From a virus: a stretch of DNA of 29,750 nucleotides. Under the pieces are notes generated by a model that was not told where the DNA came from, did no database searches, and worked only from the letters and a program-made list of their open reading frames with translations. Position numbers and translations under genes: made by a program. Below are positions 3,342 to 29,750 of this stretch, piece after piece. The stretch spans positions 1 through 29,750 of IMG/VR virus record IMGVR_UViG_3300025860_000057; one strand, written 5' to 3'. Positions within the stretch are counted from its first letter, which is position 1. Each line of letters begins with the position of its first letter.

Positions 3342-5357
3342 ATGGATAAAATCTTACATGTAGCCTCTACGTTCAAGTCTCTTGAGAATGATGATGGTAG
3401 CGTAATGATACGAGGTATGGCAAGTACTAATCACTCTGACCGAGCAGGAGATGTAATCTCTAAAGAGGCTTGGGAAAAAGGTGGTTTAGAAAATTTTAAA
3501 AATAACCCTGTAATTTTATTTAATCACGACTATGATAAACCAATTGGTCGTGCAACAGGCGTTAAAGTAACAGAAAATGGACTAGAGTTAGAAGCAAAGA
3601 TTAGTAAATCTGCTCCTGCTGCAGTCTGTGAACTAGTAAAAGACGGTGTTCTTGGAGCCTTTTCCGTTGGTTTCAAAGTCAAGGATGCTGATTATATAAA
3701 AGAAACTGACGGATTAATGATTAAGGATGCTGAGTTGTTTGAAGTATCGGTTGTATCGGTACCATGCAATCAAGCAGCTACTTTTTCTCTCGCGAAATCG
3801 TTTGACTCTCAAGAAGAGTACAATGAGTTCAAGAAAACTTTCACCAATCGTGTAGATCTAACAGGTCAGTCTCTGACCAAAGAAGATGAAATATCATCCA
3901 ACCTGGTTAGTGATGCACCTACAAGCTCCGAGAAATCGGAAAAACAGGAGATCAAAATGGATACTAATGAATCCGGAATCGACTTGGAAGCATTTGCTAA
4001 GAAAGTAGCTGAAGAAACTGCTGCTAAAATTGCAATGAAACAAGCCGAAACAAAAGCCGCTGACGAAGCGCAAGCAAAAATCGCAGCTGACGCTGCAGAA
4101 GCAAAAGCTGCTCAAGACGAGCAAGTTAAAACAGTAATCCGCACTGGTATCGAAACTGGCGCAGAAAGATTAAAAGCTGACATGGAAGCTGACTTTGCTA
4201 AGGCAAAAGACAGTGAAATGGCTGACGTTGTTAAGAAGTATGAAGCTGATGTTGCCGAGAAATCTGCAGAATTAGAAGCTATGCGTAACAGCAAAATGGA
4301 GTTTGCAGCAAAATCTGGTCAGTCTGATTTCTCTAAAGAATTCTTACATGCTAGCGTTTTAGGTGCAATCACTGGTAAAGGCATGGGAACTAACTTTGCT
4401 AAAGATCTTATGCAGAAAAATACTTTATTCGGTACTCCAACTCCAGTAGATACAGACGGTAATATCGATCTTTCTGTTACTCAAGCATTTGAAGAAGAAG
4501 TTTCTTTATCAACTAATGTTGCCGGTTTATTCCGTGAGATTCCAGTAAATTCACAAGCTACTATCATTCCTTTCGCTGCAGAAGCAGACGAAGCGGTATT
4601 TGGTGGTGCTGGCGGTCTTAGCACTAATACTAATCGTTTACAGAACGGTGGTACTGAAGGTCAATTCGACATTGGTAAGCGAATCATCAACACTGAGCGT
4701 GTTATTGCTGGTACTTTTATCGACAATGATACTGACGAAGAGTCTTTGATTAGCTTCTTGCCTATGATCACTTCAGCTTTAGCTGTTGCACATGGTCGCG
4801 CAATCGATAAAGCATTGCTTTATGGTACTGCTAACAACACAGCTGGTATGGCTGGTGGTAATGGTAGCGATAAAGGCGCTGGCCTTTTAGCCACTCCGCT
4901 AACAACATTAGCTCAGTTAGATGGCGCTCCTGCGTTCTCTGGTGCAGACTTGATTGCTGCACGTGCACAAATGGGTAAATTTGGTGTTAATCCAACTAAG
5001 ATTGCATACATTGTATCTCTACCTGCTTACTATAAGTTACTAGAAGATGCGGATTTCCAAACTGTTGATCAGATTGGTAATGATCGTGCAACTATCCTTA
5101 CGGGTCAAGTTGGTCAAGCATACGGTTCTCCAGTAATCGTAAGTGACGTTCTTGCACCGGCTTCTGCTGGTACTGCATGTGTTGCTGTAAATGTTGATGC
5201 ATTCTTAGTCGGTCGATTAAGAGGCGTTAAGATTGAAACAGACTACGAAGTAGCTAACCAACGAAATGCAATTGTTGCAACTCAGGCTATTGGCTTCTCA
5301 CGAATCCAATCAGCTCTTGCTGCAACAGCTGTAACGTTTACTGCAAACGTAGGCTAA
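3342..5357 (+). CDS. Prohead protease-scaffold-major capsid protein fusion (HK97 type)
   Basis: One 671-aa frame joins three parts that are often separate genes. Residues 1-155 are an HK97-type prohead protease: conserved DRAGDVIS (33-40), NHDYDKPIGRA with His62, GAFSVGF with candidate nucleophile Ser108, and ELFEVSVVSVPCN (131-143). Residues about 206-325 are an Ala/Glu/Lys-rich helical stretch with coiled-coil character, matching the delta/scaffold domain that HK97 capsids lose on maturation. Residues about 330-671 are the capsid fold: an N-arm, FGTPTPVD, EIPVNSQATIIPF, and a C-terminal GSPVIVSDVL...VGRLRGVKIETDYE. The protease would free itself and trim the scaffold inside the prohead. The start has only a weak AGAGAAA site, so the fusion may be made sparingly; see the nested start at 3957. 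Confidence 0.9.
   Translation: MDKILHVASTFKSLENDDGSVMIRGMASTNHSDRAGDVISKEAWEKGGLENFKNNPVILFNHDYDKPIGRATGVKVTENGLELEAKISKSAPAAVCELVKDGVLGAFSVGFKVKDADYIKETDGLMIKDAELFEVSVVSVPCNQAATFSLAKSFDSQEEYNEFKKTFTNRVDLTGQSLTKEDEISSNLVSDAPTSSEKSEKQEIKMDTNESGIDLEAFAKKVAEETAAKIAMKQAETKAADEAQAKIAADAAEAKAAQDEQVKTVIRTGIETGAERLKADMEADFAKAKDSEMADVVKKYEADVAEKSAELEAMRNSKMEFAAKSGQSDFSKEFLHASVLGAITGKGMGTNFAKDLMQKNTLFGTPTPVDTDGNIDLSVTQAFEEEVSLSTNVAGLFREIPVNSQATIIPFAAEADEAVFGGAGGLSTNTNRLQNGGTEGQFDIGKRIINTERVIAGTFIDNDTDEESLISFLPMITSALAVAHGRAIDKALLYGTANNTAGMAGGNGSDKGAGLLATPLTTLAQLDGAPAFSGADLIAARAQMGKFGVNPTKIAYIVSLPAYYKLLEDADFQTVDQIGNDRATILTGQVGQAYGSPVIVSDVLAPASAGTACVAVNVDAFLVGRLRGVKIETDYEVANQRNAIVATQAIGFSRIQSALAATAVTFTANVG
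3957..5357 (+). CDS. Nested capsid precursor from internal in-frame start (predicted)
   Basis: ATG3957 is codon 206 of the fusion frame and is preceded by AGGAG (3946-3950) at a six-base gap, a far better ribosome site than that of the full-length gene. Initiation here gives a 466-aa protein made of the helical scaffold/delta region plus the capsid fold, the normal composition of a separate HK97-type capsid precursor. The start sits exactly at the junction after the protease and a Ser/Thr/Glu-rich linker. This would allow many capsid subunits per protease, similar in principle to the lambda C/Nu3 nested genes. The sequence of the site is direct observation; its use is inferred. Confidence 0.65.
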   Translation: MDTNESGIDLEAFAKKVAEETAAKIAMKQAETKAADEAQAKIAADAAEAKAAQDEQVKTVIRTGIETGAERLKADMEADFAKAKDSEMADVVKKYEADVAEKSAELEAMRNSKMEFAAKSGQSDFSKEFLHASVLGAITGKGMGTNFAKDLMQKNTLFGTPTPVDTDGNIDLSVTQAFEEEVSLSTNVAGLFREIPVNSQATIIPFAAEADEAVFGGAGGLSTNTNRLQNGGTEGQFDIGKRIINTERVIAGTFIDNDTDEESLISFLPMITSALAVAHGRAIDKALLYGTANNTAGMAGGNGSDKGAGLLATPLTTLAQLDGAPAFSGADLIAARAQMGKFGVNPTKIAYIVSLPAYYKLLEDADFQTVDQIGNDRATILTGQVGQAYGSPVIVSDVLAPASAGTACVAVNVDAFLVGRLRGVKIETDYEVANQRNAIVATQAIGFSRIQSALAATAVTFTANVG

Positions 5358-9013: not shown

Positions 9014-12000
9014 ATGACCACTGAATTTTACTTAGATAAAGAACTTAAAGTATACCTTGAAAATGACAAAGGCGAGCTGTGGCAAATTGCTGTAACAGCA
9101 GTACCTTCGTTTTCACAAAGTGTTAACCAAGAACCTGTTAGTACACCTTCGCTATATGCGGGCGGTACTACTAGGAATTCTTTAAATAAGTTTACAAAAA
9201 ATATCAAGGTAGGATACGCACCAGGTGAGTGGTCATTCAGTACGTATGTTAGACCTTTTAATCAAGACTCGAAAGAACGTGCTGTAGAAGACGTTTTATG
9301 GGAGTCTTTTGCTCAAGGTTCTGCAACCGCATATGCAGACAGCCCAAGCTCTGTATCTGCTACAAAACAAGATATAACTCTCTCTAAAGATGAACTATTA
9401 AGTTCCTTTAATCTTTACTTTATATATGAAAACAATACCGGATACGTAATGAAGAATTGCGTAGTATCCTCCGCTAATACAACTGTAGATATTGGGTCTT
9501 TGGCTACAATATCATGGTCGGGGTCGGGAACAAGTTTAGAAAAGTTCGACCCACAGGATTTAGTACAGTCTGCAGATAACTCGCCACAACATAGAAGCGG
9601 CAACATTGACAGTGGAAAAATGGCTGCAATGGAAGGCAATACTGCAATATTTGCACACTCATGGGAAAACGCCCCTGATACAAATAACTACGATGGTGCT
9701 GCTCATGTGTATGTAACAAATGATGGTGGGTGTACGTGGGAGTTTCAACAGACTTTACGACCTACTGAGACGGGAGGCCATGAGTACTTCGGGGTCTCTA
9801 TGGCTCTCGAAGGGGATAAACTTGTTATAGGTGCAGTCAATCGCCTGGGCGGAGACGGAGGATTCTACTACTTTACTAGAGCTGCAGGAGTCTGGACCCT
9901 AGTAGCGGCTTATTCTAGTCCTGACTTTGACGAGGATAATGGTGACGATGACGGAGTCTCAGGGGACTATGATGATGATAGACTAGGTCAATCAGTAGCA
10001 ATGAGCGGAGACTATTTAGTAACAGGTGTATCTGGGCATGATTCCGGAGATAGTTTAGACGATAATATTGGTGCAGCAGTTGTATGGAAGCTTGTAAACA
10101 ACGGATGGGTGCAAAAGGCTATATTATATAACACAGATGGAACGGACCAGCAATACGGAAGAAGTGTGCAGATAGATGGAGACAGAATTGTTATTCCGAG
10201 CAGACAAAATCTTTATTTTTACACTACATCAGACGCGGGAGAAACTTGGTCACTAGAGCAGACTTTATTTATCTGGGCCGTCGGTAAACCAATAGCATCA
10301 CAGAACGAAATATGTAAATATAACCGCCAGGGCGGAACTTACGGTACCGTCTTTCTTGGCATGGCCTACATAGATTCTAATGCCGGCTTTTTTGATAGCG
10401 GTGCAGTGCTGGTAATTACACATAATGGAACAGCTTGGTCCGTTACACAAACTATAGCGTCTCCTCTTGCAGCAACGCAACATTATTTCGGACGCCACAT
10501 AGACTTTGATGGAACTACACTATTAGTCGCAGGCTCAGACGATTACTCACGTTGGGGCTCTACCGATACGAATTACGGTAGAGGCAAGCTATACCAATAC
10601 AACTTAAACGAAACAACTTGGGAGTTATCCCATACGTTAGATACTGAAAAAGCATTATCTTTAGGCGGTGCAATGGGTCGTACTAACTATAGCTTCACAT
10701 TGAGTAATGGCAATATATTAACTAGATGTCTAGAAAACCGAACAGGATTAAGCGTAGCTACTACTACCCGAACTGTGACCAGCATTACAGCAGACTACAT
10801 AACACTAAATGCCCGCTACAATCCTAGAAGCTACGATTCTGTAGTTATCAACGGACAAAGGTATTTTGCTATTTTGTTATCTCCAGCCGGGGTCAACCAC
10901 GCTGTAGGTCTTAGTACGAACTGGGTTATGAACCAGGTGGGTAGAGGGCGAATAGACTGTACTACTTTAGGTCTATCTGTAAATGATAGTTTAGTTTTTG
11001 AAGGCGAGAATATACACTCTTGGCACTTCTTTAAGGCTGCCTTCCACCCTTCAATGTGTGAGAACAAAACGGGGTTAGCGCTAACAGATAACTACATAGT
11101 AAATAAACTTAGTAGCATGGAATTTGGTCTGCAAGAAAGTAAAGAAGTTCTTTATCGTGGTGGCATGCTTATTGATTCGCCTACATCGTATGATTATTTT
11201 GGAGCGGCAATGGACATGCAGTACCCTTGGTTGATGGTATCCGCATATGGAGATGATACTGCCACAGGAGATGCAGGCTCAGTACAAGTTTTTAAATTTG
11301 ATGAAGCTACTAACGCTTGGGTATTTAAACAGACTTTATTTTCCTTCTCACCTGAAGGAAGTGCACAATTTGGAGGACCCCCTGATGGTAGTCCAATTTC
11401 TATCTCACCTTGCGGTAGGCAGGTAGCAATAGGAGAACAAGGCAGAGGTACAAATACTACAGGCCGTGTAAATATCTTCTCCTTAAAAGCAGACCTGTGG
11501 CAGCAAGAAGCAATTATAGACCCTACAGGCACCGCTACCGGTGATACGTACCTAGAATTTGGCAGGGACGTGTCTTTATATCACAACATGCTTATTGTAG
11601 GTTGCTGGCTAGATAATACTTCTACAGGCAACGACAAAGCAGGCAGCGCCGCTATTTATAGAAGAGAAGGAGCGTTGTGGACTAAGAGAGAGCATTTAGT
11701 TGGGTCAGATCATGGCGGCACCAGTGCACCACATGATTTTTTCGGTAGAGGAGTAGCTATATATGACGGAGTGGCTATAGTATGTGCTTCTGGAGAAGGT
11801 GCCGGTACTTACTACTCCTTCAAATCCACAAATAATGGAAAAGACTGGTCGCTAGCAGAGAGAAAATACTTGCCTACCGGAGCATCATCAGGGGGTCGCC
11901 AAGTCAAGCTTGCAGAAGGTACCATGATCATTGGAGAGCACGGGCTAGATGTACTGAATGGCTTAAATAACACAGGGGGTGTATTTGTCTATAATACTAC

Positions 12001-12808
12001 TTCGACATTAGGCGTATTTAATCATGTAACTACTCTGCTTCCACTAACTGTAGACTTTGCTGATTTAGAGGTTAATGATTATTTTGGACTGCCTGTAGAT
12101 ATGGACACGTCTGAGAACGGTAAGAATGTTACTATTGTGGCAGGCGGTCATACGTTCGACACCAACGGAATAAATTCTGCAGGCCTCGGATACATTTGGA
12201 ACTCTACTGATTACGGAAAATCTTGGTCTGAAGGACGTACGTTTCACCCTTCCAATTTGGCCGATACCGATACTTTTGGGCACTCATTAGCAGTAAGCAA
12301 TGGACATATTGCAGGTGGATCTAGATATGGTGTAGTACCGGGATTAGCGGGAAATCGTCATGGATATGTAGCTACATTCAGAACTGGCGTAAACTTCCCT
12401 ATAACATCTGCAAACATTCAGATTAGTAACTCACTAACGCCCATCTCTTACCCATTGCTTGGCGAAATGGATAAACCTATCGGCTTTTCATCAGGGGCTC
12501 AACAAGTGTCGGGTAGCTTCTCTGGCTACATAATGGATGACGGAGGCCTAGACACAAAAGAGTTTATATCTTCTTTATTTGACAACACGATACAGACTTT
12601 GCCAATTTCTTTAAATCTAGGGGGAACCAAAGCAAATACTAATAGGTTAAAGTTTGAGCTAAACAAAGCTACACTTTCCAACCCTTCTATATCAGGAGAT
12701 GGAATATCAGCCTTCAGTGTAGAATTCTCCGCAGAAGATACTCAGGCACAGAACTCGGATTCAACAGATATATTAAAAATAACGTATAAATCTTCATCAG
12801 TAGCTTAG
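9014..12808 (+). CDS. Tail tube paralog carrying a large beta-propeller insertion
   Basis: This 1264-aa protein has tail-tube ends and a foreign middle. Residues 1-180 repeat the markers of the first tube gene: SFSQSVNQ, WSFSTYVRPF, VEDVLWESFAQG, LATISWSGSGTSL. Residues about 1137-1264 repeat its second module: DKPIGFSSGAQQVSGSFSGY near 1153 and a closing ILKITYKSS. Between them lie about 950 residues of roughly 13 FG-GAP-like blades, with recurring YFG.S.A..GD.LV.GA, then GA..V.., then W...QTL. Four Asp-box-like loops are present: TNDGGCTW, TSDAGETW, STNNGKDW, STDYGKSW near residues 233, 404, 937 and 1063. A different segment, about residues 555-705, splits the blades into a group of six and a group of seven. 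It is probably a virion protein displaying propellers for adhesion or glycan binding. The upstream terminator and weak ribosome site suggest low copy. Confidence 0.75.
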   Translation: MTTEFYLDKELKVYLENDKGELWQIAVTAVPSFSQSVNQEPVSTPSLYAGGTTRNSLNKFTKNIKVGYAPGEWSFSTYVRPFNQDSKERAVEDVLWESFAQGSATAYADSPSSVSATKQDITLSKDELLSSFNLYFIYENNTGYVMKNCVVSSANTTVDIGSLATISWSGSGTSLEKFDPQDLVQSADNSPQHRSGNIDSGKMAAMEGNTAIFAHSWENAPDTNNYDGAAHVYVTNDGGCTWEFQQTLRPTETGGHEYFGVSMALEGDKLVIGAVNRLGGDGGFYYFTRAAGVWTLVAAYSSPDFDEDNGDDDGVSGDYDDDRLGQSVAMSGDYLVTGVSGHDSGDSLDDNIGAAVVWKLVNNGWVQKAILYNTDGTDQQYGRSVQIDGDRIVIPSRQNLYFYTTSDAGETWSLEQTLFIWAVGKPIASQNEICKYNRQGGTYGTVFLGMAYIDSNAGFFDSGAVLVITHNGTAWSVTQTIASPLAATQHYFGRHIDFDGTTLLVAGSDDYSRWGSTDTNYGRGKLYQYNLNETTWELSHTLDTEKALSLGGAMGRTNYSFTLSNGNILTRCLENRTGLSVATTTRTVTSITADYITLNARYNPRSYDSVVINGQRYFAILLSPAGVNHAVGLSTNWVMNQVGRGRIDCTTLGLSVNDSLVFEGENIHSWHFFKAAFHPSMCENKTGLALTDNYIVNKLSSMEFGLQESKEVLYRGGMLIDSPTSYDYFGAAMDMQYPWLMVSAYGDDTATGDAGSVQVFKFDEATNAWVFKQTLFSFSPEGSAQFGGPPDGSPISISPCGRQVAIGEQGRGTNTTGRVNIFSLKADLWQQEAIIDPTGTATGDTYLEFGRDVSLYHNMLIVGCWLDNTSTGNDKAGSAAIYRREGALWTKREHLVGSDHGGTSAPHDFFGRGVAIYDGVAIVCASGEGAGTYYSFKSTNNGKDWSLAERKYLPTGASSGGRQVKLAEGTMIIGEHGLDVLNGLNNTGGVFVYNTTSTLGVFNHVTTLLPLTVDFADLEVNDYFGLPVDMDTSENGKNVTIVAGGHTFDTNGINSAGLGYIWNSTDYGKSWSEGRTFHPSNLADTDTFGHSLAVSNGHIAGGSRYGVVPGLAGNRHGYVATFRTGVNFPITSANIQISNSLTPISYPLLGEMDKPIGFSSGAQQVSGSFSGYIMDDGGLDTKEFISSLFDNTIQTLPISLNLGGTKANTNRLKFELNKATLSNPSISGDGISAFSVEFSAEDTQAQNSDSTDILKITYKSSSVA

Positions 12809-12825
12809 CACCTAAAAAATAACTC

Positions 12826-12854
12826 TTGACATTCTAGGTTGTTTATCATATACT
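12826..12854 (+). promoter_or_regulatory. Near-consensus sigma70 promoter before third tail tube gene
   Basis: TTGACA (12826-12831) and TATACT (12849-12854) are separated by 17 bases, matching 11 of 12 consensus positions. The expected start is near 12861, giving a leader of about 42 nt that contains CAGGCC twice (12874-12879, 12881-12886) and a GGAG ribosome site (12894-12897) five bases before ATG12903. Confidence 0.75.
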
Positions 12855-18307: not shown

Positions 18308-19047
18308 TGGCATTTACACCTGTACTACCGGATCCGAATAATCCAATAACCCCCGCGGGAGCTAGCACTGGAACAGGGCCTGTTAACGGTCCTGGATATG
18401 CCTCCGTAAGTTTAAAATCAGTACTACCTAGTATGACTACTAGAACTAACTCTGGGCGAGCAATAGTACGAAATATAGCAGGACATAAATGGGAGATGAG
18501 TTTATCTTACAACCCACTTACTCGTGCTGAATTTGAGCCTTTGCATGCTTTTCTTTTACAAAAGAAAGGAGCTACTTCTCACTTTTTTGTGTCCTTGCCT
18601 CAGTATACAGCACCCCAAGATAGTACTTTTGCTACTTACCTAGCTACTAGCGCTTTGAAGCCTACTGCTAATGTAGCGGCGGGTAAAGATACATTTATGT
18701 TAAATACTAAGTCTGGTACTACGTTTGTTCTTAGCACCCACAAAACTCCTTCTCCAGGAGACATTTTTACTATAACAGATACTAACGATACCAATCATGT
18801 AAAAGTATATATGATTACTAGAGTAGAGACCAATTCTGATTATTCGACAACTCCTCGGCCTACTACAAATGAGCTTAAAATTAGCTTTACTCCGCCTTTG
18901 CAGAGATCTGTGCAAGCATCGACCACCGCTGTGGATTTTACAGATGTAAAGTTCCGAGTAATCAATAAAAACAAAGATATAGGCTACAGCCTAGATGTTA
19001 ATAACCTATACAAACTATCCCTTAGCTTAGAGGAGGCCCAACCGTAA
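18307..19047 (+). CDS. Minor tail protein (distal tail/gpM-like)
   Basis: This 246-aa protein starts in a TAATG overlap with the tape measure, with AAGGAG ten bases upstream. The segment GHKWEMSLSYNPLTRAEFEPL (split near residues 58-80), followed by HAFLLQKKGATSHFFVSLPQ, is characteristic of tail-tip proteins that link the tube end to the central hub. The C-terminal half is beta-rich (GDIFTITDTND, VKVYMITRVE, IGYSLDVNNLYKLSLSLEE). In lambda, genes L, K and I would follow; here the J-like gene follows at once with another TAATG overlap and a GAGGAGG ribosome site. Confidence 0.65.
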   Translation: MAFTPVLPDPNNPITPAGASTGTGPVNGPGYASVSLKSVLPSMTTRTNSGRAIVRNIAGHKWEMSLSYNPLTRAEFEPLHAFLLQKKGATSHFFVSLPQYTAPQDSTFATYLATSALKPTANVAAGKDTFMLNTKSGTTFVLSTHKTPSPGDIFTITDTNDTNHVKVYMITRVETNSDYSTTPRPTTNELKISFTPPLQRSVQASTTAVDFTDVKFRVINKNKDIGYSLDVNNLYKLSLSLEEAQP

Positions 19048-22000
19048 TGGCACTTAGAGAAATTAATGCAACACTAAAACAGGCACTTATTGATAATGTG
19101 CCTTTTACATATGCTCACTTATTAAAGTTTGAGCGTCCTACAAAAGTAGCTCAATATTTGGGAGTAGCTTCTACAGACTCTAAAAACTATACTTATATAA
19201 CAGACGCACCTTATGACATCGTATTTGATGATGGCGATGGTAATGGACCTAAAGTATATAGAGCAAACAAGCTTGTTAAAGCTGGTTCTGTAAACGAGAC
19301 TATAAAGGCGAAAGCATCTAGTATTAGTATAGTACTGGATTCCTCTACTTTGGACTCTCAAGCGATTGAGCCTCGTTTTATTACTGTATCGACTACAGAG
19401 GGCGGCACTGGTACACTAAACGCCACCGGGGTTACTAACTTTGTAGAGCTTGGATTTAGAGAAGGGGATAAAGCGACAATTAGGTCAAGTAATAGCAGCT
19501 TTGACGGTGTATCTGTCATAATTAGGACATTTATAAACGGAGGCAACGGGTTTACCTATACTGCAGCTACTACAATGCCTGAAATATCACTGTCAGCCTC
19601 TGCTGATGTCACCAGCATAGATTTGGTTTCTGAAGAGCTAACCGCCCTTACAACAGCCAAAGAAGTTACCTCGTATACTAGCTATATTAATCGAGAAGTT
19701 TACGTACATAAAGTATTTATTGCTACAGAGTTTACTACTTTATCTAATGGCGACACTATTTCAGCAGGAAGTATAATCGGAGGAGCAAATAATAGTCCCG
19801 GGAGTGTTCAGGGCGGTATATTAACTTTTCGAGGGATCATATCTAAAGCTGCTCTAACCGATGGACCTGGGTCCTCTACTATTACGTGGACGGCGGCCAG
19901 TCATTGGGCGGACTTTAATAGAGTTCAAGGACGAAGAACGGAAGATACATCACATAGAGCTGTAAACGCTGATGGTTTACCAGACAGGGAAGCTGCCGTA
20001 CGCGAAGCTTATGCAGACGATTTAGGTTTTGCACACGCAACCACGTCAGTAAATCTTACAGCAGTATACCAGAAAACTGAAACTCGAGTAGAGGTTGATG
20101 TAGATAAAAACTGGTATGGAGGGGTTAGTGACGTAGATACTAAAGAAGTAGAGTACGATGTACCTACCGAACTAGATCTTAAGTTCAACTTGCAGGCTAA
20201 ATACCTTCCTGTAGTATATGGGGTACAAAGAGTAGATACTATACCCTTCTTCGTGGATACTAGAAACCACGAGTCTACGGAAGTACACTCATGCTACGCG
20301 ATAGCGGAAGGCCCTATAACAGGCCTGTATGATATACATCTTAACGGGAACAGTTCTATTTGTGCCGATGAATCTGATTTTGATGTTCGAGGCACAAATG
20401 TAGCCGCTTCTGACTCTGATGGAAGAACGGATTTCTTATGTAAAGGCTATCAAAATCGTGGCAATACCTTAAGAGGGTATAATGCCGTTGAAAATCAACC
20501 TGTCCTAGTTACAGAGAATAACGTAGGGGAGATTGATTGGATTAATCCATCTAAGAATGCAGGCGTAGTCCCTTTAACAGATTCATATAGTGTACCTAAT
20601 TATACTTTGCTGAGCGCACCTGTAGGCAATACAGGTATACTACATGGACTATCATATTCTTTTGACAACCCGTTAAAAACAGACTTGACGTTCCATAATG
20701 GTGGTGGGTATCAAAAAGCAAATAACGATCTAGTCTCTATTGCTCAAACTACTGCCACTACAGCAGGTGGAGTAATTAAAAACTTCAAGGTACAAAAAGA
20801 CTACTACGTAGGCAAAGAGACGTACTGGGGGCCTAATCACAGGGTACTGGATACTTCTTATATACACGCCAAATTCAAGATAGACGAAGGCGAAACAGAT
20901 TTACCTAAGTTTAAGATGGTAGTTAGAGGTGTAGCGGTAAAATGCTACAACTATGATAATTCTTACGCCAAAGATAAGAGAGCTGGATTTGGAAGCGCAG
21001 ACCCACTTAACTTTGAGTTAGGCGACACTGTCACCCTAAAGAAGACTAGCAACAACGCCTCGCTTATAGGAGGCAACTTTACAATTACGGATAAGTGGTT
21101 TGTTTATGGGGCGGACGGCTTGCCCGAGTATAGATTTAAAGTACAGGATACTGCTGGTACCTATCCAACTATACCTGCAAATACGCACTTTTACATGGAA
21201 AAAGGTTCTCACAAATGGTATATGGCAACTCATGACGCCTATGTAGCAAAAGACACAGCTGTACCTGCTCCTTTGAGCAACACCGTAAGTGCACGAGGAA
21301 ACAAACAATTAACTATATCAGGGTCTTCTCCTGTAGAAGCTGCGCTGTCTCTAGACAATCCTACTGTTAGTTTAGTTTCTAATGCTAATCCATCTTTTGC
21401 TTCGGGTAACTTCGCTGGATTTCTATATACTGCCGGATCAAACATAATCTCTAATCTAGGTACTTCAAACTGGAGTAACGTTGGCAGCAGTAGTATCACT
21501 ACAGTTATAGTAAGTAATGGTATACAACTGCACTCAGGAGCAAGTACTACTCCAAATATGTACGTGGGCCTAACAATTGAGCTAACAAGAACTTTGGCAG
21601 ACGGTACTACGTATGTGCAAACAAGAAAAATCACAGACTACCATGGTTCTAGAGTAGCTATAGTAGATGTTCCTTGGGATACGGGATATATACCTGGTTT
21701 CGGTTTAGAAACAGGAGAAACAGATACATTTACGCTATTTACGGGTATTGACGAAAGAGCAAGTACTAACCCTGCTATGCAACTCTTGGATTATCTTACT
21801 TCAGAGAGGTACGGTAAAGGTTTAAAAGAATCAGATGTAGATTTACCTACGTTTAAATCCGCAGCAGCAGACTGCGATCAGCAAAGTACAGTTACAGTAG
21901 TAGCTAACGGAAGTGTTACTGTTGCAAACGGAGCTCAATATCGCTATGGTACTGCTGGGAGTGTCTCTGGATATTTTCGAGGTACAGTAGAGAGCTCTGT

Positions 22001-25000
22001 GCAACGTACTGTAGGAGGAAGCCCATACACAGAGATAACTTTTACAAATGTAATAGGAAAGCTAGCCAAAAAATGGAACAAATATACTATTTGGGTAGAT
22101 GATGAGCTTATCTGGAACCCTGCGACCGGAGAACTAAAAGAGGCACAAGCTGGGCAACAGACTAACTTTACAGGTAATACTATATCGTCTTTGAGCCTTA
22201 CTAAAGTATATGGATCTGGTGCACCAGGAACAATAGCACTAGACGTTACAACGTTCAAAGCAGGAAATAATAACCCTGTAGTTAAAAAATATACTACTAA
22301 CTTTGATACTTTTAGTGGATCAGGGTACTCATTATATGATGCTGATGATATAAAGTATTGGAAATATATCGGGTGGGACGATAACACACAAAGACATGCT
22401 ACTCGTCATCAGATGAACCAATCTATTAATACTTCTCAACCTCTTTTTACTAATGTAAATAAGATGCTGGAGCAGTTTAACGGCATGTTACGTTATTCAC
22501 TGGGCAAGTACCAACTGAAGATTAAGGCTAAAGCCCCTTCTACTTTTGATGTAATAGAAGATATAGATGCAGGAGATATAATTGGTAACCTAAAGATTAC
22601 TGATGCTGGAAGTAAAAAAACTTTTAACTCTGCTAACTTGTCATTTCCTGACCCTCAGAATAAGTTTGAGAATAGAGATATTTCGTTTTTTGACTCAAAC
22701 TTTTTGAAAGAAGATAAGGGTATACCTAAGAATCTCTCCTACCAATGTAGGGGCATAACTAACTATTTTAATGCTCGCTTCAATATAGTACAGAAACTAA
22801 AAGAGTCTAGGTACGGCTTAACTGTAAACTTTAAAATAGGTCCACAAGGACACGCGTTGTTGCCTGGGGAAATTATACGCATAACCTACCCTAGATTTGG
22901 GTGGACTACTAAGTCTTTCCGTATAACCAGCATCAACTACTCTCCAGATTGTCTAGCTACTATAACTGCGGACGAGCATAATAATGATGCTTACGCGGTA
23001 GACAGTACTCAGGAAAGTGTAGACACACTCTTTACTCCTGGCGGTATCGCAATAAAACCTATACCAGACTCCCCTACTGGACTAGCTACATCTGCACCAA
23101 GTGCTGGCGGTATTGGTCTGACTTGGATACATAGTGCGTCTTATAGACCTACTACCCACTTTCTTGAAGTGTGGAGAAGTGATACTAATAGTAGATCTAT
23201 TTCTCAAGCTATAACAACTAACTCTGCACCTAATAGTAACGCAGCTTACACTGACGTAGTAGTTAGTAGTAATACAGGAATTGCTGTAGGACAGTTAGTT
23301 AAGTACAGAAACTCTCCTACTAATTTAGTGGTTCAGGCCATAAACGGCACCACCATAACTCTATCTGCACCGGTAGAGATAGTAGACGAAACCGTACTTT
23401 TGTTTTTCGTTGCCAAAAAGATAGCTACATTAGGCGACGAAGTAGAGTACACAGATGCAATACTTAGTTCTGCAACCTCTGTAGATAGATACTACTGGGT
23501 GCGCTACGCAGTGCGTGTTCAAGAAGCAGGTACGGGCGCAGTAAAAATAAAAGAATCGTTCTCGCCTTTCCACCCTACCAGCGCTACCGGCGGGGTTGTA
23601 GGAACAAACCAACCTGCGGGAAGTCCAAGAACTCTTACTATATTTTCAGGTGCCAACGGGCAGTCGGGTAACTTTATACAGTACGATGTAAACTCGATAA
23701 ATCCAAACCCTAACGCAGTTACATTAACAGCTGTACCAGGAAATGTTGCAGGGACTCAAAGCTACGTATGGACGGTAGCAGTGCCAGGTGGAAGTTTCAG
23801 CGCAGTACCTAGCGCAGGCAATAATGCTACTCAGGCGTTTAGTCTTCCAACTAATTTATCTGACCTGCCAAAAATTATACGATGTGTGATGACCGATACG
23901 GTAGGAACTACAGAGTACACCGCAGAAGCAACTCTAGAGTTTTACGGAACACGAGTTGTAGCAGACGGTGAAGACGGTGAAGATGGTGCTGTCTCCGCAC
24001 AACTAGTAGATAGGTTCATGAGATCTAGAAGTGCTGCAGTAGGTGACATTACGTTTAGTACACTTAATAATGCGGTTAAATTAGTAGACGCAGGTGGTAT
24101 TGATAATGAGATAGCCATGGTATTGCCGGCTAAAACTGTTATTGCTGGACAGAAGTACGATGTAAGTTTCGCATACAAAGCAGATTCAGCTGCCTCGGCT
24201 GGATTCTACGCACGAATCAATGCAGACACTAACGTTTTATCTTCAGGAAATACTGCGGTAGCTAGTGGAGGCTTTCACGAGACAGGAGTTAAAGACGTAA
24301 CCAATACTTCTTCAGCGGTACCAGGTTTCTTAAACGGTAGTGTACTTAGCAATGCTGCAGTATCTACAGAGTGGCAGGTTAGAACATTTGTATATACCGT
24401 ACCTACTGATGCAGTTGTAGCAAGTCTACAGTTTTTGAGATGGTCAGGAATGGGCGGCGATGGTGTGACGGCCGGCTCAGCTACTAACGCTCTTTACATT
24501 AAAGATGTAGAGTTTAGTTTGCAAGGAGAAGCTGGAGACAACGGAGATGATGGAGATGATGGTTTTACTCTTTCTTCGCGTCTACCTGCATTTACGTTTA
24601 GTGCACCAGCTAACGGAAACATAGCAGACCTTACAGGCTACTCTGGATTCTTTGACCTCAAAAAGGGTACTACTGCATTTACATATGATAATACTGTGGC
24701 CTATGCAACAAATAGCTGGAGATACGGAACCTTTAGTAGCTCTACCACTGGTGGTGTTGGAGATCTCAATATAACCGTTGCAGCTAATGGTCAATTATCT
24801 ATCAACTCTAATTCTCCGTTTACTACAGGGACAAGTATTTTAGACGCTTACTTTGATGTACAGATTTTAGACAATAACAACAGTGGTGCGGTACTCTCAA
24901 CAATGAGAACGTCGTTCACAAAAGCTATATCTGGTACTGTAGGTGCAGATGCAACAACTGTATCTCTTAGAGCAACTAAGCAGATAATAGAATATGCCGC

Positions 25001-26810
25001 AGATGGCACAGGCGGTACTGGTACTATTACGCTTACTGCTACTTCTCAAGGTTTCACTGATGCATACTTTAAATTTACAGGTGGTGGGAGTGATTTTACA
25101 GACGAAACCAGCTGGACTGACGGTAGCGCGGCAAACAATGATACTGCCACGTTTACAGTACCTACTAGTTATAATGCTACTCCCTATACGTTCGCTGTAC
25201 AGGCTAGAGAGGGTGAAACAGGCACTCCGATAGCTGCAGATACTCTTACAATTGCGTCTGTTAAGCCTGGTACTAATGGTAATCCTGGTGAAAGCTTTAA
25301 GACAGTATCTGTTTATAAAATTGGTGATAGTACTTTAGGTTTTAGCTCTGGAGGCGCAAGTGGGCAAACTTTTGCTAGCCCAGTTAATAATTTAGAGACA
25401 GGCTGGAGTACAACTCAACCGAGTATAACTGCAAATAATCAAATAGTATATCAAGCTACTAGGACATTTAGTACTATTACTGCAAACAGTGATGCAGCAT
25501 GGAGTACTCCAGTAATAGTAGCTAGAAGAACTGATGGAACGAGTACTACAGGTCAAAGTGTTAAAACTGTTTCTTTGTTTAGAGAAGGAAGTAATAGTGA
25601 TGCTCCAACTACAGCAGGAACATTTGCTGATCCAGATAATCAGGTAAACGTAAACTGGTTAGATAATCAACCAGCTTTAGCTAACGACGGAGATGTAGTA
25701 TACCAAATAACTAGAACATTTACTTCTGATGCCGCTGCACCTCAAGACAGTGCATGGAGTACTCCAGTAATAGTAGCTAGTAGAACTGATGGTGCTCCTG
25801 GTGCTCCTGGTGCCGATGCACTCACAGTGCTTCTTACAAATGAAACACATGCTATTCCTGCAAGTAGTTCAGGCACTGTTAGCAGTTTCGCAGGGTCAGG
25901 TACTTCTATCAAAGTATTTGAGGGAGCCACACAGCTAGACTATGATGGAGTCGGAACTAGCAATGGTCATTTCAAAGTAAATGTTGCGCATAGCGGTATG
26001 AATAACCCAGTTTTTGCTTCAGATGATGCTTCCACACTTCATGCAACAGTGCAGGACTTCACTGCTATGTCAGGAAATACTGGTAGCGCAACGTACACTA
26101 TCGTAGGAAAATTTAGTGATGGTACTGCTATACCTGCTGGGGTTATCAAGACTCAAACCTTTACAAAAGCCAAAGCGGGTGCAGATAGTACTGTGGCTGG
26201 AGTACGTGGATCTGGTATATTTACCTTCGAGGAGCAAGACACTGCCCAGATAAATAATACGTACGCCACAAGCTGGGCTGGGACTCTTAATAATGCCAGT
26301 GCTCAAGCAGTTGCAGCAGCAGTTATAGCAGCAGCATCTGATGGCGCTATTAGACCAAATGATAGAATCACTGTTACAGACATTGACGCAAACCTAGCAG
26401 GAACTAGAGTATATAATGGAAGTGTACAATCATCTAGCACTTCTATAAGTGCTAGCAACTTTAGCTCGCTAGTAGTAGAAACCTTCCCAGGCAGTGTAAT
26501 CGTAGATGGTACATTGTCAGCAGATAAGATAAATGGTGGCACAATTAGTGGTAATAATGTCAATGTACGCTCTAACTTAGTGATTGGAGCATCAAATGCG
26601 GCAGGAGCAATTTATAGCCATGGTAAATCCAGTGCCACTAGTGCCACAAATGGATTCTATCTAGGTTCAAACTCTAGTGGTACTACTGTGTTTGCAATAG
26701 GCGGTGGTGGCGCCACTAGCGGAGGAACCACTATGACTGAGGACGGTATCCGCGTAAGAGACGACACTGGTGCAATCCGAGTTAAGATAGGTGACTTATC
26801 ACAGCTTTAA
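19047..26810 (+). CDS. Giant J-like tail tip/host-specificity protein, multidomain
   Basis: This 2587-aa protein is the probable central tip and receptor-binding polypeptide. Residues 1-330 look like a separate hub domain (TFRGIISKA, then WADFNRVQGRRTEDTSHR near 287). The J core follows: YLPVVYGVQRVDTIPFFVDT and AEGPITGLYDIHLNG (near 419), running to about 1330 with LGKYQLKIKA and IRITYPRFGW. Next comes an FN3-like domain with an internal insertion (about 1340-1510) and an Ig-like stretch. A jelly-roll, carbohydrate-binding-like domain at about 1651-1821 (YDVSFAYKAD, WQVRTFVYTVP) is flanked by collagen-like GEDGEDG and GEAGDNGDDGDDG. Two repeats of about 85-88 residues occupy about 2085-2248, then GAPGAPGADA. 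The C-terminus has GTLSADKINGGTISG, a motif common at J/fibre ends. Domain limits are estimates; overall identity is firm. Confidence 0.85.
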   Translation: MALREINATLKQALIDNVPFTYAHLLKFERPTKVAQYLGVASTDSKNYTYITDAPYDIVFDDGDGNGPKVYRANKLVKAGSVNETIKAKASSISIVLDSSTLDSQAIEPRFITVSTTEGGTGTLNATGVTNFVELGFREGDKATIRSSNSSFDGVSVIIRTFINGGNGFTYTAATTMPEISLSASADVTSIDLVSEELTALTTAKEVTSYTSYINREVYVHKVFIATEFTTLSNGDTISAGSIIGGANNSPGSVQGGILTFRGIISKAALTDGPGSSTITWTAASHWADFNRVQGRRTEDTSHRAVNADGLPDREAAVREAYADDLGFAHATTSVNLTAVYQKTETRVEVDVDKNWYGGVSDVDTKEVEYDVPTELDLKFNLQAKYLPVVYGVQRVDTIPFFVDTRNHESTEVHSCYAIAEGPITGLYDIHLNGNSSICADESDFDVRGTNVAASDSDGRTDFLCKGYQNRGNTLRGYNAVENQPVLVTENNVGEIDWINPSKNAGVVPLTDSYSVPNYTLLSAPVGNTGILHGLSYSFDNPLKTDLTFHNGGGYQKANNDLVSIAQTTATTAGGVIKNFKVQKDYYVGKETYWGPNHRVLDTSYIHAKFKIDEGETDLPKFKMVVRGVAVKCYNYDNSYAKDKRAGFGSADPLNFELGDTVTLKKTSNNASLIGGNFTITDKWFVYGADGLPEYRFKVQDTAGTYPTIPANTHFYMEKGSHKWYMATHDAYVAKDTAVPAPLSNTVSARGNKQLTISGSSPVEAALSLDNPTVSLVSNANPSFASGNFAGFLYTAGSNIISNLGTSNWSNVGSSSITTVIVSNGIQLHSGASTTPNMYVGLTIELTRTLADGTTYVQTRKITDYHGSRVAIVDVPWDTGYIPGFGLETGETDTFTLFTGIDERASTNPAMQLLDYLTSERYGKGLKESDVDLPTFKSAAADCDQQSTVTVVANGSVTVANGAQYRYGTAGSVSGYFRGTVESSVQRTVGGSPYTEITFTNVIGKLAKKWNKYTIWVDDELIWNPATGELKEAQAGQQTNFTGNTISSLSLTKVYGSGAPGTIALDVTTFKAGNNNPVVKKYTTNFDTFSGSGYSLYDADDIKYWKYIGWDDNTQRHATRHQMNQSINTSQPLFTNVNKMLEQFNGMLRYSLGKYQLKIKAKAPSTFDVIEDIDAGDIIGNLKITDAGSKKTFNSANLSFPDPQNKFENRDISFFDSNFLKEDKGIPKNLSYQCRGITNYFNARFNIVQKLKESRYGLTVNFKIGPQGHALLPGEIIRITYPRFGWTTKSFRITSINYSPDCLATITADEHNNDAYAVDSTQESVDTLFTPGGIAIKPIPDSPTGLATSAPSAGGIGLTWIHSASYRPTTHFLEVWRSDTNSRSISQAITTNSAPNSNAAYTDVVVSSNTGIAVGQLVKYRNSPTNLVVQAINGTTITLSAPVEIVDETVLLFFVAKKIATLGDEVEYTDAILSSATSVDRYYWVRYAVRVQEAGTGAVKIKESFSPFHPTSATGGVVGTNQPAGSPRTLTIFSGANGQSGNFIQYDVNSINPNPNAVTLTAVPGNVAGTQSYVWTVAVPGGSFSAVPSAGNNATQAFSLPTNLSDLPKIIRCVMTDTVGTTEYTAEATLEFYGTRVVADGEDGEDGAVSAQLVDRFMRSRSAAVGDITFSTLNNAVKLVDAGGIDNEIAMVLPAKTVIAGQKYDVSFAYKADSAASAGFYARINADTNVLSSGNTAVASGGFHETGVKDVTNTSSAVPGFLNGSVLSNAAVSTEWQVRTFVYTVPTDAVVASLQFLRWSGMGGDGVTAGSATNALYIKDVEFSLQGEAGDNGDDGDDGFTLSSRLPAFTFSAPANGNIADLTGYSGFFDLKKGTTAFTYDNTVAYATNSWRYGTFSSSTTGGVGDLNITVAANGQLSINSNSPFTTGTSILDAYFDVQILDNNNSGAVLSTMRTSFTKAISGTVGADATTVSLRATKQIIEYAADGTGGTGTITLTATSQGFTDAYFKFTGGGSDFTDETSWTDGSAANNDTATFTVPTSYNATPYTFAVQAREGETGTPIAADTLTIASVKPGTNGNPGESFKTVSVYKIGDSTLGFSSGGASGQTFASPVNNLETGWSTTQPSITANNQIVYQATRTFSTITANSDAAWSTPVIVARRTDGTSTTGQSVKTVSLFREGSNSDAPTTAGTFADPDNQVNVNWLDNQPALANDGDVVYQITRTFTSDAAAPQDSAWSTPVIVASRTDGAPGAPGADALTVLLTNETHAIPASSSGTVSSFAGSGTSIKVFEGATQLDYDGVGTSNGHFKVNVAHSGMNNPVFASDDASTLHATVQDFTAMSGNTGSATYTIVGKFSDGTAIPAGVIKTQTFTKAKAGADSTVAGVRGSGIFTFEEQDTAQINNTYATSWAGTLNNASAQAVAAAVIAAASDGAIRPNDRITVTDIDANLAGTRVYNGSVQSSSTSISASNFSSLVVETFPGSVIVDGTLSADKINGGTISGNNVNVRSNLVIGASNAAGAIYSHGKSSATSATNGFYLGSNSSGTTVFAIGGGGATSGGTTMTEDGIRVRDDTGAIRVKIGDLSQL
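25497..25537 (+). repeat. Direct repeat copy 1 in tip gene
   Basis: This 41-base copy encodes AWSTPVIVARRTDG and matches 25752-25792 at 40 of 41 bases. The spacing of 255 bases is 85 codons, so it marks a duplicated protein domain whose ends have stayed nearly identical in DNA. Confidence 0.85.
25752..25792 (+). repeat. Direct repeat copy 2 in tip gene
   Basis: This is the second copy, encoding AWSTPVIVASRTDG. The single difference (GCTAGT for GCTAGA) changes Arg to Ser. The rest of the repeat unit is conserved only at protein level, so this end has been kept alike by recent exchange or constraint. Confidence 0.85.
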
Positions 26811-26820
26811 AAAATAAAAC

Positions 26821-26849
26821 TTGACAAAATTTGTCATAGGCAATATAAT
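26821..26849 (+). promoter_or_regulatory. Perfect-consensus sigma70 promoter for fibre cassette
   Basis: TTGACA (26821-26826) and TATAAT (26844-26849) are separated by exactly 17 bases. The expected start near 26856 leaves a leader of about 13 nt with GGAGA (26859-26863) six bases before ATG26870. The promoter begins ten bases after the stop of the giant tip gene and no terminator is seen between them. Confidence 0.85.
26822..26836. promoter_or_regulatory. Dyad overlapping the -35 box (candidate operator)
   Basis: TGACAAA and TTTGTCA are a perfect 7-bp inverted repeat around one central A. The left arm covers five bases of the -35 hexamer and the right arm lies in the spacer, a classic place for repressor binding. 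No regulator for it is visible in the window. Confidence 0.5.
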
Positions 26850-26869
26850 GTACGACATGGAGAAAAAAT

Positions 26870-27205
26870 ATGTCAGCAGGTAAATACAACATAAACATCG
26901 ATCAAGGTTCTACTTTTGAACTTACGGTTACAATAAGCTCGGGAGGTTCTGCGAAGGACCTCACAGGCTACTCGGCACGTGCAAAGTTGCGGTTAAAACC
27001 GGAAGCTACCGCTTCTACTGATTTTACTTGTACAGTAACGAATGCAAGTGGCGGAGTACTTACAATGGCACTAACGCCTGAACAGACTGATGCACTAACT
27101 GCGAGCAGATATGTGTATGATCTAGAGATATTTACAAATAGTGATGCAATAGTTAATCGTATCATTGAAGGAACCGCAGAGGTATCTAGAGGAGTAACTA
27201 GATAA
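26870..27205 (+). CDS. Small tail/baseplate-type beta protein (BppU N-domain-like)
   Basis: This 111-aa protein opens the fibre cassette. Its pattern, INIDQGSTFELTVTI, then KDLTGYSARAKLRLKP, then GGVLTMALTPEQTDAL, then SRYVYDLEIFTNSD, ending RIIEGTAEVSRGVTR, is a recurrent one in short tail proteins of many phages and resembles the N-terminal module of baseplate upper proteins. It may be an adaptor joining fibres to the tip. It has GGAGA six bases before ATG and its own promoter. Its stop overlaps the next start (TAATG), so the two are translationally coupled. Confidence 0.65.
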   Translation: MSAGKYNINIDQGSTFELTVTISSGGSAKDLTGYSARAKLRLKPEATASTDFTCTVTNASGGVLTMALTPEQTDALTASRYVYDLEIFTNSDAIVNRIIEGTAEVSRGVTR

Positions 27206-28611
27206 TGGCTACTTCCGTAACTCTAAATCCTGCAGTAACAAACGTAACGGTAGCATCCCCCAGCGCTATATCCGTAGATCTAACTACTTTTACTACTACT
27301 GTAAATGTTACTAGTGGATTACTGCCTCAAGATCTGGGCACTAGTGCCATACCCTCTTTTTATGGCTTGAATATCACTACCTTTGGCGGAGGGATAAACT
27401 TCACTAGTGGCTTGAGTACTCGTTCGGGAAAAATTACATTTGAAGATAATAAAGAAAACGCTTTTCAATTTTATTCAAAAGACAATGGCAACCTCGTAGC
27501 GTATCAGACGTTCGATAGCACTGATGCGGCAGAGAAAGTTAAATTTCATAAAGATGTAGAAATTGAAGGTACTGCTACTGCTGTAGAATTTGTTGGCGAT
27601 TTAAGAGGGGCTGTAAGATTTCAAGCAAAAGCTGGCGAATCATTAGCAAAGGGAGATGTGGTTTATATCTCTAGCGTTAGCGGACAAAAACCCGTAGTAA
27701 GTAAAGCCCAAGCAAACTCTGCAGCCACGATGCCTTCATTTGGACTAGCTAATGCAGCCGTTAGTGCTAATGGTAATATTGAAGTTATTTCGTTTGGCAC
27801 ATTTGCACATGGTGACACAACAGGCGGTGCTGAAGAATGGGAATTCGGTGATATACTATATGTAAGCGCAGCAACGGCTGGAGCATTAACAAATGTTAAA
27901 CCTGCAGGTGCTGCTAATTTAATTCAAAATGTTGGTAAAGTTGAAAGAGTACATGAACAGACTGGATCTATTATGGTTGCGGGTGCAGGACGAACTGCAG
28001 CTACTCCCAACCTAGATACTGGAAAGTTCTTTATAGGAGATTCGAATAACTATTCCTCAATAGGCTCTTTTAATAACCAATTTACTAATACAAGTGGTAC
28101 GATCTCTTTAAATGGTGCTAACATTACTGCTTCAACTGTTACAGTTACAGATAGTACAGCAAATACGGACTTCCCAGTTGTATTTCATGATGAATCGAAC
28201 GGTCTCTTAGATGATACTGGAGCACTTACATATAATCCGTCAACGGGCGCGTTAGTATCTTCAGGAACAATAACTGCATCTCAAACCTTAGCAGCTACAG
28301 TTGACACCAGCATAGATGCTTCCGAGTTTGCTACTTTTGCAGGTAAAAAAATTGTTTATACTGGAGGTGCGGGAACCCTTATACTTGCAGATGCTGTCTC
28401 TGGTGATGTAGGTAAATCCTGGACACTTCTTAACTCAGGTACAGGAGCACTTACTGTAGACAGGACAACAAATACTCAGACAATTAAACATCTTAATGGT
28501 TCCGCTGTATCATCAGGTACTTCCAACTTAACAGTAGCTACAGGCGCTGTTACCGAGATTATTTGCACTGCCGTAGATAATTATATTATCTTTGGTTCTG
28601 GTATCTCATAG
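27205..28611 (+). CDS. Tail fibre protein with central beta-rich knob-like domain
   Basis: This 468-aa protein is Thr/Ser/Ala/Gly-rich, as fibres are, with AGGAG ten bases upstream. Residues 1-130 are a beta-rich shaft region. Residues about 130-265 hold a pattern often seen in phage fibres and decoration proteins: AKAGESLAKGDVVYISS, PSFGLANAAV, FGDILYVSAATAGALTNV, then IQNVGKVERVHE. A repeat-rich stretch (TNTSGTISLNGANITASTVT) leads to a C-terminal domain with GKKIVYTGGAGTLILADA and VGKSWTLLNSGTGALTVDR that probably trimerises or contacts the receptor. No enzymatic motif is seen. The stop TAG shares its G with the next gene's GTG. Confidence 0.65.
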   Translation: MATSVTLNPAVTNVTVASPSAISVDLTTFTTTVNVTSGLLPQDLGTSAIPSFYGLNITTFGGGINFTSGLSTRSGKITFEDNKENAFQFYSKDNGNLVAYQTFDSTDAAEKVKFHKDVEIEGTATAVEFVGDLRGAVRFQAKAGESLAKGDVVYISSVSGQKPVVSKAQANSAATMPSFGLANAAVSANGNIEVISFGTFAHGDTTGGAEEWEFGDILYVSAATAGALTNVKPAGAANLIQNVGKVERVHEQTGSIMVAGAGRTAATPNLDTGKFFIGDSNNYSSIGSFNNQFTNTSGTISLNGANITASTVTVTDSTANTDFPVVFHDESNGLLDDTGALTYNPSTGALVSSGTITASQTLAATVDTSIDASEFATFAGKKIVYTGGAGTLILADAVSGDVGKSWTLLNSGTGALTVDRTTNTQTIKHLNGSAVSSGTSNLTVATGAVTEIICTAVDNYIIFGSGIS

Positions 28612-29120
28612 TGTTTAGTTCCGCGATAGTGGCAGCCTCTGCCCCGACTTCAGTGCTGCTTCATGAAGTCGAACTAACTTCTGCCGCCGTTAATTACACT
28701 GGCAGCATATACTATGGGTACTTTAAGATATTCGGATACTATCAAGGAAGCATAGACCCAACTACAGATGTTACTGTAGCAGATGGAACCACTCATGGCT
28801 TTTATGAGTTTAGACGTCTAGGCACTACTGAATACTTAAAGCTGGGAGCAATAAATACTAATTACATAACATTTCCTGTACAAAGCCCTCTAAATACTGA
28901 TGCAAGCGCGTTTAAAACAATCAAATTACTTAGTTCAAATAGGACATTACTCTGGTCTAGAGAAAGATCTGATTTGACCTATACTAGTGATGCTTCTGGC
29001 TATACATATATCCCTGGTCAAGGGCTTGTAAATACATACCTACCTAAGTGGTCATGGACAGAACCACTCAATTATATAGTGCCCCAAGCTGGGACAAGAA
29101 TAATACAGCTTTGGAGCTAA
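28611..29120 (+). CDS. Fibre-cassette protein of unknown function
   Basis: This 169-aa protein starts with GTG in a TAGTG overlap with the fibre gene. I do not recognise the family. It is beta-rich and aromatic (IYYGYFKIFGYYQG, GFYEFRRLGTTEYLKLG, WSWTEPLNYIVPQ) with a short N-terminal hydrophobic stretch (FSSAIVAASAPTSVLL) that lacks the basic start of a signal peptide. Its place after the fibre suggests a fibre tip, chaperone or accessory. Its 3' end contains the GGAG ribosome site for the next gene. Confidence 0.6.
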   Translation: MFSSAIVAASAPTSVLLHEVELTSAAVNYTGSIYYGYFKIFGYYQGSIDPTTDVTVADGTTHGFYEFRRLGTTEYLKLGAINTNYITFPVQSPLNTDASAFKTIKLLSSNRTLLWSRERSDLTYTSDASGYTYIPGQGLVNTYLPKWSWTEPLNYIVPQAGTRIIQLWS

Positions 29121-29122
29121 CT

Positions 29123-29644
29123 ATGAATGAAGTAAGAAATATTACTGCGCTAGAGACATCTGAGATAGATATACTATTTAATGCCTGCAAAGACAAAATA
29201 TTAGAAGGTACTATGCGTTTAGTTACTGATAGTAGAGAGACAGAGGCCCATGATTGGTTAACCTCCGACTTACTTTACTCACTAGAGTCTGATAGTAACG
29301 CAGTAGTTTTTGGGTACTTTAAGGATAATGTACTATGCTGGATTAGATATGGTATTGTAACAGATGGAGTACTTAGACAGTCTTATTACTTAGCAGGTAT
29401 AGATTTTGAAGGGAGTAGGAATTATTTATACTCTCAAGATTTTTTTGATGCGCTTGAGTCTTACTATAGAACTAACTACACCGAAGTACTTTCATGGACT
29501 TTAAAAGACTGCTCTACTTATACATATGAGTTAAATACTGTGACGCCTATGCTATATGATTCTGCCTCTGCGTATACATCCGAAGAAGTACAAGATTTAG
29601 ATGATAGCCACACACTAATACAGCATTCTATGTCGTTTTCTTAG
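29123..29644 (+). CDS. Last fibre-cassette gene, possible GNAT-like fold
   Basis: This 173-aa acidic protein starts at ATG29123, with GGAG (29113-29116) six bases upstream and the previous stop three bases before. The same frame is open back to GTG29048, but that start would overlap the preceding gene by 73 nt and lacks a ribosome site. The order helix (EIDILFNACKDKIL), strands (NAVVFGYFKDNVLCWIRYGI), strand (QSYYLAGID), helix (DFFDALESYYRTNY), strand (EVLSWTLKD) is faintly like an acetyltransferase fold, but no clear acetyl-CoA loop is present. It could modify or help fold the fibre. Function is unknown; the terminator follows directly. Confidence 0.6.
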   Translation: MNEVRNITALETSEIDILFNACKDKILEGTMRLVTDSRETEAHDWLTSDLLYSLESDSNAVVFGYFKDNVLCWIRYGIVTDGVLRQSYYLAGIDFEGSRNYLYSQDFFDALESYYRTNYTEVLSWTLKDCSTYTYELNTVTPMLYDSASAYTSEEVQDLDDSHTLIQHSMSFS

Positions 29645-29646
29645 AC

Positions 29647-29674
29647 AAAGAAAAAGGGCTTTCGCCCCCTTTCT
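29647..29674. terminator. Bidirectional terminator between convergent genes
   Basis: On the + strand AAAAAGGGC pairs with GCCC, then TTT after a two-base bulge, across a TTTC loop. On the - strand it reads as GGGC-GAAA-GCCC followed by TTTTTCTTT, a textbook terminator with a GNRA loop. It ends the fibre cassette from the left and the minus-strand gene from the right. Confidence 0.8.
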
Positions 29675-29750
29675 ATACTACTTCACCTTCTTTGACTTCT
29701 TCAGGCTGCTCTTCTGCATCCTTAACAGCGTCTCTAAGCTGCTCTACAAA
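29673..29750 (-). CDS. 3' end of a minus-strand gene (partial), acidic C-terminus
   Basis: Read on the minus strand, the frame is open from the window edge to a TAG at 29675-29673 and gives VEQLRDAVKDAEEQPEEV followed by KEGEVV. The 25 visible residues are charged and strongly acidic, helix then tail. No family can be named from this. Its convergent direction suggests the structural module ends here and another module, such as lysis, regulation or replication, begins. The shared terminator abuts its stop. Confidence 0.55.
   Translation of the reverse strand, partial: FVEQLRDAVKDAEEQPEEVKEGEVV

Follow-up and report, generated by a model that had tools for sequence, protein, structure and literature searches.

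A consensus promoter, probably of a late class, at the join between tail tip and fibre modules in a T5-like marine phage group

What does a perfect promoter overlapped by an inverted repeat do at the boundary between the tail tip gene and the fibre genes of a phage? We addressed this question in a 29,750-nucleotide stretch of viral DNA (IMG/VR record IMGVR_UViG_3300025860_000057, positions 1 to 29,750; hereafter the window), where a sequence-only reading had proposed an independently transcribed and possibly repressor-controlled fibre cassette. The consensus promoter which that reading described ahead of the fibre genes is present: a sigma-70-type site on the plus strand (26821-26849) matches the consensus at 12 of 12 positions, with a -35 of TTGACA (26821-26826), a 17-bp spacer and a -10 of TATAAT (26844-26849), and it is the only 12/12 site within 22000-29750. 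Its start site (~26856), strength and timing are predictions from the sequence. Upstream, the tail tip gene (ORF 19047-26810, plus strand) ends in a TAA stop codon (26808-26810), which forms the upstream edge of a conserved promoter island, and an A-tract, AAAAATAAAAC (26810-26820, plus strand), abuts the -35 and occupies the place of a proximal UP element. Downstream, a ribosome-binding site TGGAG (26858-26862, plus strand), read from the sequence and conserved in relatives, precedes the ATG of the first cassette gene at 26870. An RNA element at this site was considered and rejected, as an Rfam search gave no match and the predicted leader is only ~14 nt.

Four plus-strand genes make up the cassette. 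The first (26870-27205) encodes a 111-aa LtfC-like, or L-shaped-tail-fibre-assembly, protein with no significant match to solved structures by sequence search, and carries a mosaic junction with relatives L014/L018 at ~26925. The second (27205-28611) encodes a variable fibre-like protein of 468 aa. The last two encode orphan proteins without a family match, one of 169 aa (28611-29120; its GTG start overlaps the preceding stop) and one of 173 aa (29123-29644). The only other copy of the latter that we found is in G021, a 25.5-kb contig whose 99.7% identity to the window over 27680-29750 indicates that it continues the window downstream in the same phage population. As had been proposed, the cassette ends at its own terminator: a hairpin (~29649-29676, not assigned to a strand) with a GGGC-TTTC-GCCC stem and A/T runs on its flanks, scored as a terminator on the minus strand, stands where the last cassette gene (stop 29644) meets a convergent gene (stop 29674-29676). 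The 3' end of this convergent gene (29674-29750, minus strand) closes the cassette, and its complete homologue is found in G002, L014's contig. Transcription of the four genes as an independent unit is upheld in part: the cassette is served by a strong promoter of its own, whose position is conserved, and closes with a terminator, but “independent” is too strong a word because nothing insulates it from upstream readthrough. Only 10 nt separate the tip-gene stop from the -35, too short a gap for a terminator, and none was found between 26810 and 26821, so readthrough into the cassette is expected from an intergenic 11/12 promoter without a dyad (12826-12854, plus strand) that precedes the tail genes leading up to the tip gene.

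We then compared the promoter across 82 sequences, consisting of the window, 80 relatives of its LtfC-like gene and L086. In 70 of these, a promoter matching the consensus at 11-12 of 12 positions with a 17-bp spacer stands at ~-49 of the ltfC start codon, and this conservation in place among relatives indicates that the 12/12 promoter with its 17-bp spacing is not a product of chance. Sequences were selected by their two hexamers; AAAAAT (-46 to -41) and a C at -36 played no part in the selection, and both are invariant in all 28 distinct fibre promoters.

Structural-family matches in the window include terminase, portal, protease-capsid, tail tube, tape measure and distal tail proteins, with T5-like phages as the best isolates; the closest are T5-like Vibrio and enterobacterial phages at ~35-50% protein identity. 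A single 671-aa ORF (3342-5357), a fused protease-capsid gene, matches the families of both prohead protease and major head protein, for which T5 has separate genes. Another ORF of 1264 aa (9014-12808) opens with a second major-tail-protein-like domain, with pieces of G004 matching its two ends, and is possibly a decorated or duplicated tail tube protein. Among the 20 records searched, mostly fragments, none matched an integrase (PF00589) or an HTH_3 repressor (PF01381), while positive controls matched, and eight encode a DNA polymerase of family A, truncated in one of them at the contig end. G009 looks like a complete genome, an 82,805-bp IMG/VR record with exact 4,911-bp direct terminal repeats and a unit of 77,894 bp; the record carries no end-repeat flag. 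We also considered integration of the portal relatives found in bacterial assemblies (L131-L138; 62-99% identity), and rejected it: these lie in metagenome bins on contigs that are short and covered to 59-96% by relatives. Bin labels include Gammaproteobacteria (Halieaceae and Porticoccaceae among them), Bacteroidetes and Parcubacteria; most bins hint at marine gammaproteobacteria as hosts, though the binning of phage contigs is unreliable. The window belongs to a T5-like marine phage group that is apparently lytic, and its structural genes, the lack of integrase or HTH_3 in the 20 records and the short contigs bearing portal homologues all speak against moron-like expression from a prophage.

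The fibre promoter belongs to a genome-wide set. Within the window, a second 12/12 promoter (1428-1456, plus strand) lies without a dyad in the intergenic region after the terminase gene, and a reversed-pattern control gave no exact match. Exact TTGAC-18-TATAAT sites occur in all 20 relatives, with G009 containing 17 and G011 13, whereas all reversed-pattern controls together gave a single match. Long genomes carry 13-17 promoters of this host type, and in nearly all of these an AAAAAT-like block precedes the -35; most transcription units of the group open with the A-tract, TTGAC and TATAAT. This arrangement resembles that of T5 (reference sequence AY543070) and T5-like phages, whose promoters (P-G25, P-J5 and those of AKFV33) have near-consensus hexamers 17-18 bp apart and an A-tract before the -35, with many promoters per genome and several inside the structural region (PMC3326045; PMC7472727). 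In AKFV33, the host-type promoters number 32 and have AAAAATT near -43 (PMC3326045), and T5 P-G25, which sits between tail genes, has AAAAATAAAAATTTC before its -35. The fibre promoter shares these traits, its hexamers being perfect, its spacing within 16-18 bp and its A/T block at the corresponding place. It differs from AKFV33 in its -35 (TTGACA vs TTGCTw), and the group differs from T5 in having a promoter between the tail genes and the ltf cluster, where none is annotated in T5.

In T5, the host sigma-70 reads all promoter classes, and early promoters, with the discriminator ATATT, differ from late ones mainly in that element (PMC7472727). We assigned the group's promoters by strand and gene neighbourhood (late, ahead of structural genes; early, on the opposite strand), and under this assignment a base other than A follows the -10 in 15/17 late vs 2/35 early promoters (Fisher 3.7e-9), or in 9/11 vs 2/35 when fibre promoters are left out (Fisher 2.5e-6), values that overstate independence because the promoters are related by descent. 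Position -21 is a C in 8/11 non-fibre late promoters vs 3/29 early ones (2.7e-4), where the same caution holds and the test was picked after viewing the alignment. The base after the -10 of the window's fibre promoter is G, a discriminator unlike that of the early class, though its not being T counts against this reading; the promoter probably belongs to the late class, with its timing judged from these promoter classes. Early-strand promoters (L121-L122 in G021, L098-L099, L103-L104) tend to have a spacer like [CG]YTAA, and their -10 tends to be followed by AT[ac]TTTC, which resembles the T5 early discriminator.

Does the inverted repeat add a second layer of control? The dyad TGACAAA-A-TTTGTCA (TGACAAAATTTGTCA), described by the sequence-only reading as overlapping the promoter, is exact at 26822-26836 (not assigned to a strand) and extends over the -35 into the spacer, so that a protein bound there would stand in the way of RNA polymerase; the dyad is also kept in the window's clade, including G004. 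Both points would suit the operator of a phage repressor that keeps the cassette off, or expressed moron-like, in a lysogen. Perfect dyads of this kind (arms of at least 7, gap of at most 3) number 10 in the window against 7.75 +/- 3.4 in simulated sequence; the palindrome in itself is therefore unremarkable for this composition, its overlap with the promoter being the one notable point. The perfect 7-bp dyad is restricted to the window's clade, its symmetry is lost in other relatives, most of which keep GAC...GTC only, and outside the clade its inner and outer positions are at chance level: across the 28 distinct fibre promoters, the inner three and outer two positions are complementary in just 7-12. 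The window holds no further copy with fewer than three mismatches, and no second copy with up to two mismatches was found in G001, G002, G009, G011 or G021; TGACA-N5-TGTCA is likewise absent from the 25.5 kb of G021. The sequence-only reading had named two things that would count against it, namely no other dyad copy in the genome and no regulated transcript from 26856, and the first is what the window and G021 show. Given also the T5-like gene set with its DNA polymerase A and the 0/20 records with an integrase or HTH_3 match, we regard a repressor operator as highly improbable. Phase-like control of the fibres finds no backing either, as no inverted repeats were found around the cassette. 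An exact search of viral contigs for the dyad with its promoter returned four records, three of which (L018, L014 and L086) are of the window's clade. The fourth (L084/G003), on a different and promoter-dense contig with a sibling promoter that lacks the dyad, was taken as coincidence. That 13-kb contig (31% GC), apparently unrelated to the window's phage group, has 14 consensus promoters, mostly within 3 kb (L105, 300-3400), in a region of few long ORFs with the repeated spacer TTGACARATTAAA. A host regulon was also considered and set aside: dyad matches in six metagenome bins with portal relatives did not exceed the reversed-pattern control overall, and the host link is doubtful.

The shorter core GAC-N7-GTC (-33 to -21) could instead be the true site of a phage or host late-promoter regulator, of which the window's longer arms would be a strong version. 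Its three GAC/GTC positions remain complementary in 23-25/28 distinct fibre promoters, GTC being kept at each position despite the variable seven bases between, and the core recurs at a few other promoters (e.g. G009 10481, 63242 and 72219; G010 17484 and 32805). Against such a site, base 11 is never A where base 5 of the dyad is T, so that compensating changes are absent, and a whole group (TTGACATAACACCCC) lacks the core with the same promoter in the same place; in one relative group, CACCCC replaces TATGTCC and the remainder is unchanged. Outside the fibre promoters, GTC occurs in 1/11 late vs 1/29 early promoters, and conservation within the fibre promoters extends to spacer positions other than GTC. 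We consider this regulator site unlikely. A phage-coded factor that tells late promoters from early ones by reading GAC-N7-GTC, or the C-rich late spacer motif (-23 to -20), seems quite unlikely too. The palindrome is probably a by-product instead: a GTC in the spacer of the late type lies opposite the GAC that is fixed in the -35 box, and the C at -21 contributed by the right arm recurs in late promoters without a dyad. Two promoter features would then add up to the palindrome, and in the window's clade chance would have completed it.

We next turn to the position of the promoter relative to its neighbours. Comparison of 49 dereplicated relatives gave 1176 pairs, 1050 of which have a nucleotide match across the promoter, and in 803 of the 918 pairs with enough flanking sequence that match starts at -45 to -110 of the ATG, at the tip stop or promoter edge (the tip stop is mostly at -62 to -77). 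The commonest downstream end is the end of the LtfC-like gene. Clean jumps in identity, from ~55% to ~90% or more, occur at -67 to -104 in L004/L009, L056/L064, L064/L065, L012/L013, L062/L066 and L042/L049; at the edges of L004/L009 (-68), L056/L064 (-73), L012/L013 (-77) and L042/L049 (-67), identity rises from ~55% upstream to 88-96% downstream. L032/L044, mainly an upstream insertion/deletion, was not counted as a clean swap. The window and L014/L018 differ in the opposite direction, high upstream and low downstream: identity is 95.5% from the tip gene across the promoter to 26925 (+55), followed by a protein 53% identical, then a 95% block inside the fibre gene (27576-28127), then no similarity until the terminator, where 29651-29750 is 85% conserved. 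Between the same flanks, the cassette measures 2.8 kb in the window, 4.1 kb in G004 and 5.2 kb in L014/L018. Together, the jumps at the tip stop and the opposite junction at +55 place junctions at the edges of a ~100-bp promoter island, which on these alignments borders exchangeable tip and fibre modules; a tip C-terminus that evolves faster could explain the sharp edges in part, and the direct recombination signal comes from high-identity pairs only.

Purifying selection on the promoter and start site could by itself have kept the island, with the mosaic edges incidental and no role in recombination. Conservation of the promoter, the UP-like block and the ribosome-binding site would be expected in any case, and both neighbours are presumably fast-evolving host-recognition genes. 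However, several pairs shift from ~55% to ~90% identity or more in the few bases around the tip stop, and the window shifts in the opposite sense against L014/L018 at +55, and we find selection as the sole cause rather doubtful. Since the island is conserved while the end of the tip gene and the fibre genes are exchanged, it would also work as a swap boundary. On balance, we consider it likely that the locus combines a strong late-class promoter for the host sigma-70 polymerase with an exchangeable fibre-module boundary in a T5-like lytic marine siphovirus group.

Boundary (linker) sequences of temperate lambdoid phages are short conserved sequences at module joins, a description that the island would share. 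The closest described case appears to be the promoter-early stem-loops (PeSLs) of T4-type phages, which are described as mediating modular shuffling (Arbiol 2010; Comeau 2014, cited in PMC4503421). As far as that summary describes them, PeSLs resemble our locus in that a conserved island carrying a promoter separates exchangeable modules, with junctions falling at the island's edges. They differ in being early rather than late promoters, in an adjoining terminator stem-loop, which we did not find between 26810 and 26821, and possibly in their many scattered copies, as opposed to a single tip/fibre site: in the records examined each genome has one fibre-type island, but the general promoter is repeated genome-wide. 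Because it has no stem-loop and is of the late class, we do not call the island a PeSL.

We propose that the host sigma-70 RNA polymerase reads the fibre promoter as one of a genome-wide near-consensus set, with AAAAAT at -46 to -41 probably serving as proximal UP element. The promoter would add transcripts to tail-operon readthrough from 12826, giving abundant fibre proteins late in infection, with timing set by the promoter classes (late, non-A after the -10 and C at -21; early, A after the -10) and not by a repressor on the dyad. The island may act as a boundary at which fibre and tip modules are swapped with a working promoter kept. A repressor-controlled fibre operon in a prophage would have been a regulatory surprise, and it is not borne out. 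What emerges is a T5-like group of marine phages in which early and late promoters follow a clear code resembling that of T5, whose early-to-late switch is still unexplained (PMC7472727); a phage-coded late factor, if real, would be a missing piece of that switch. By marking the site of tip/fibre exchange, the promoter island may offer a simple landmark for host-range modules in uncultured phages.
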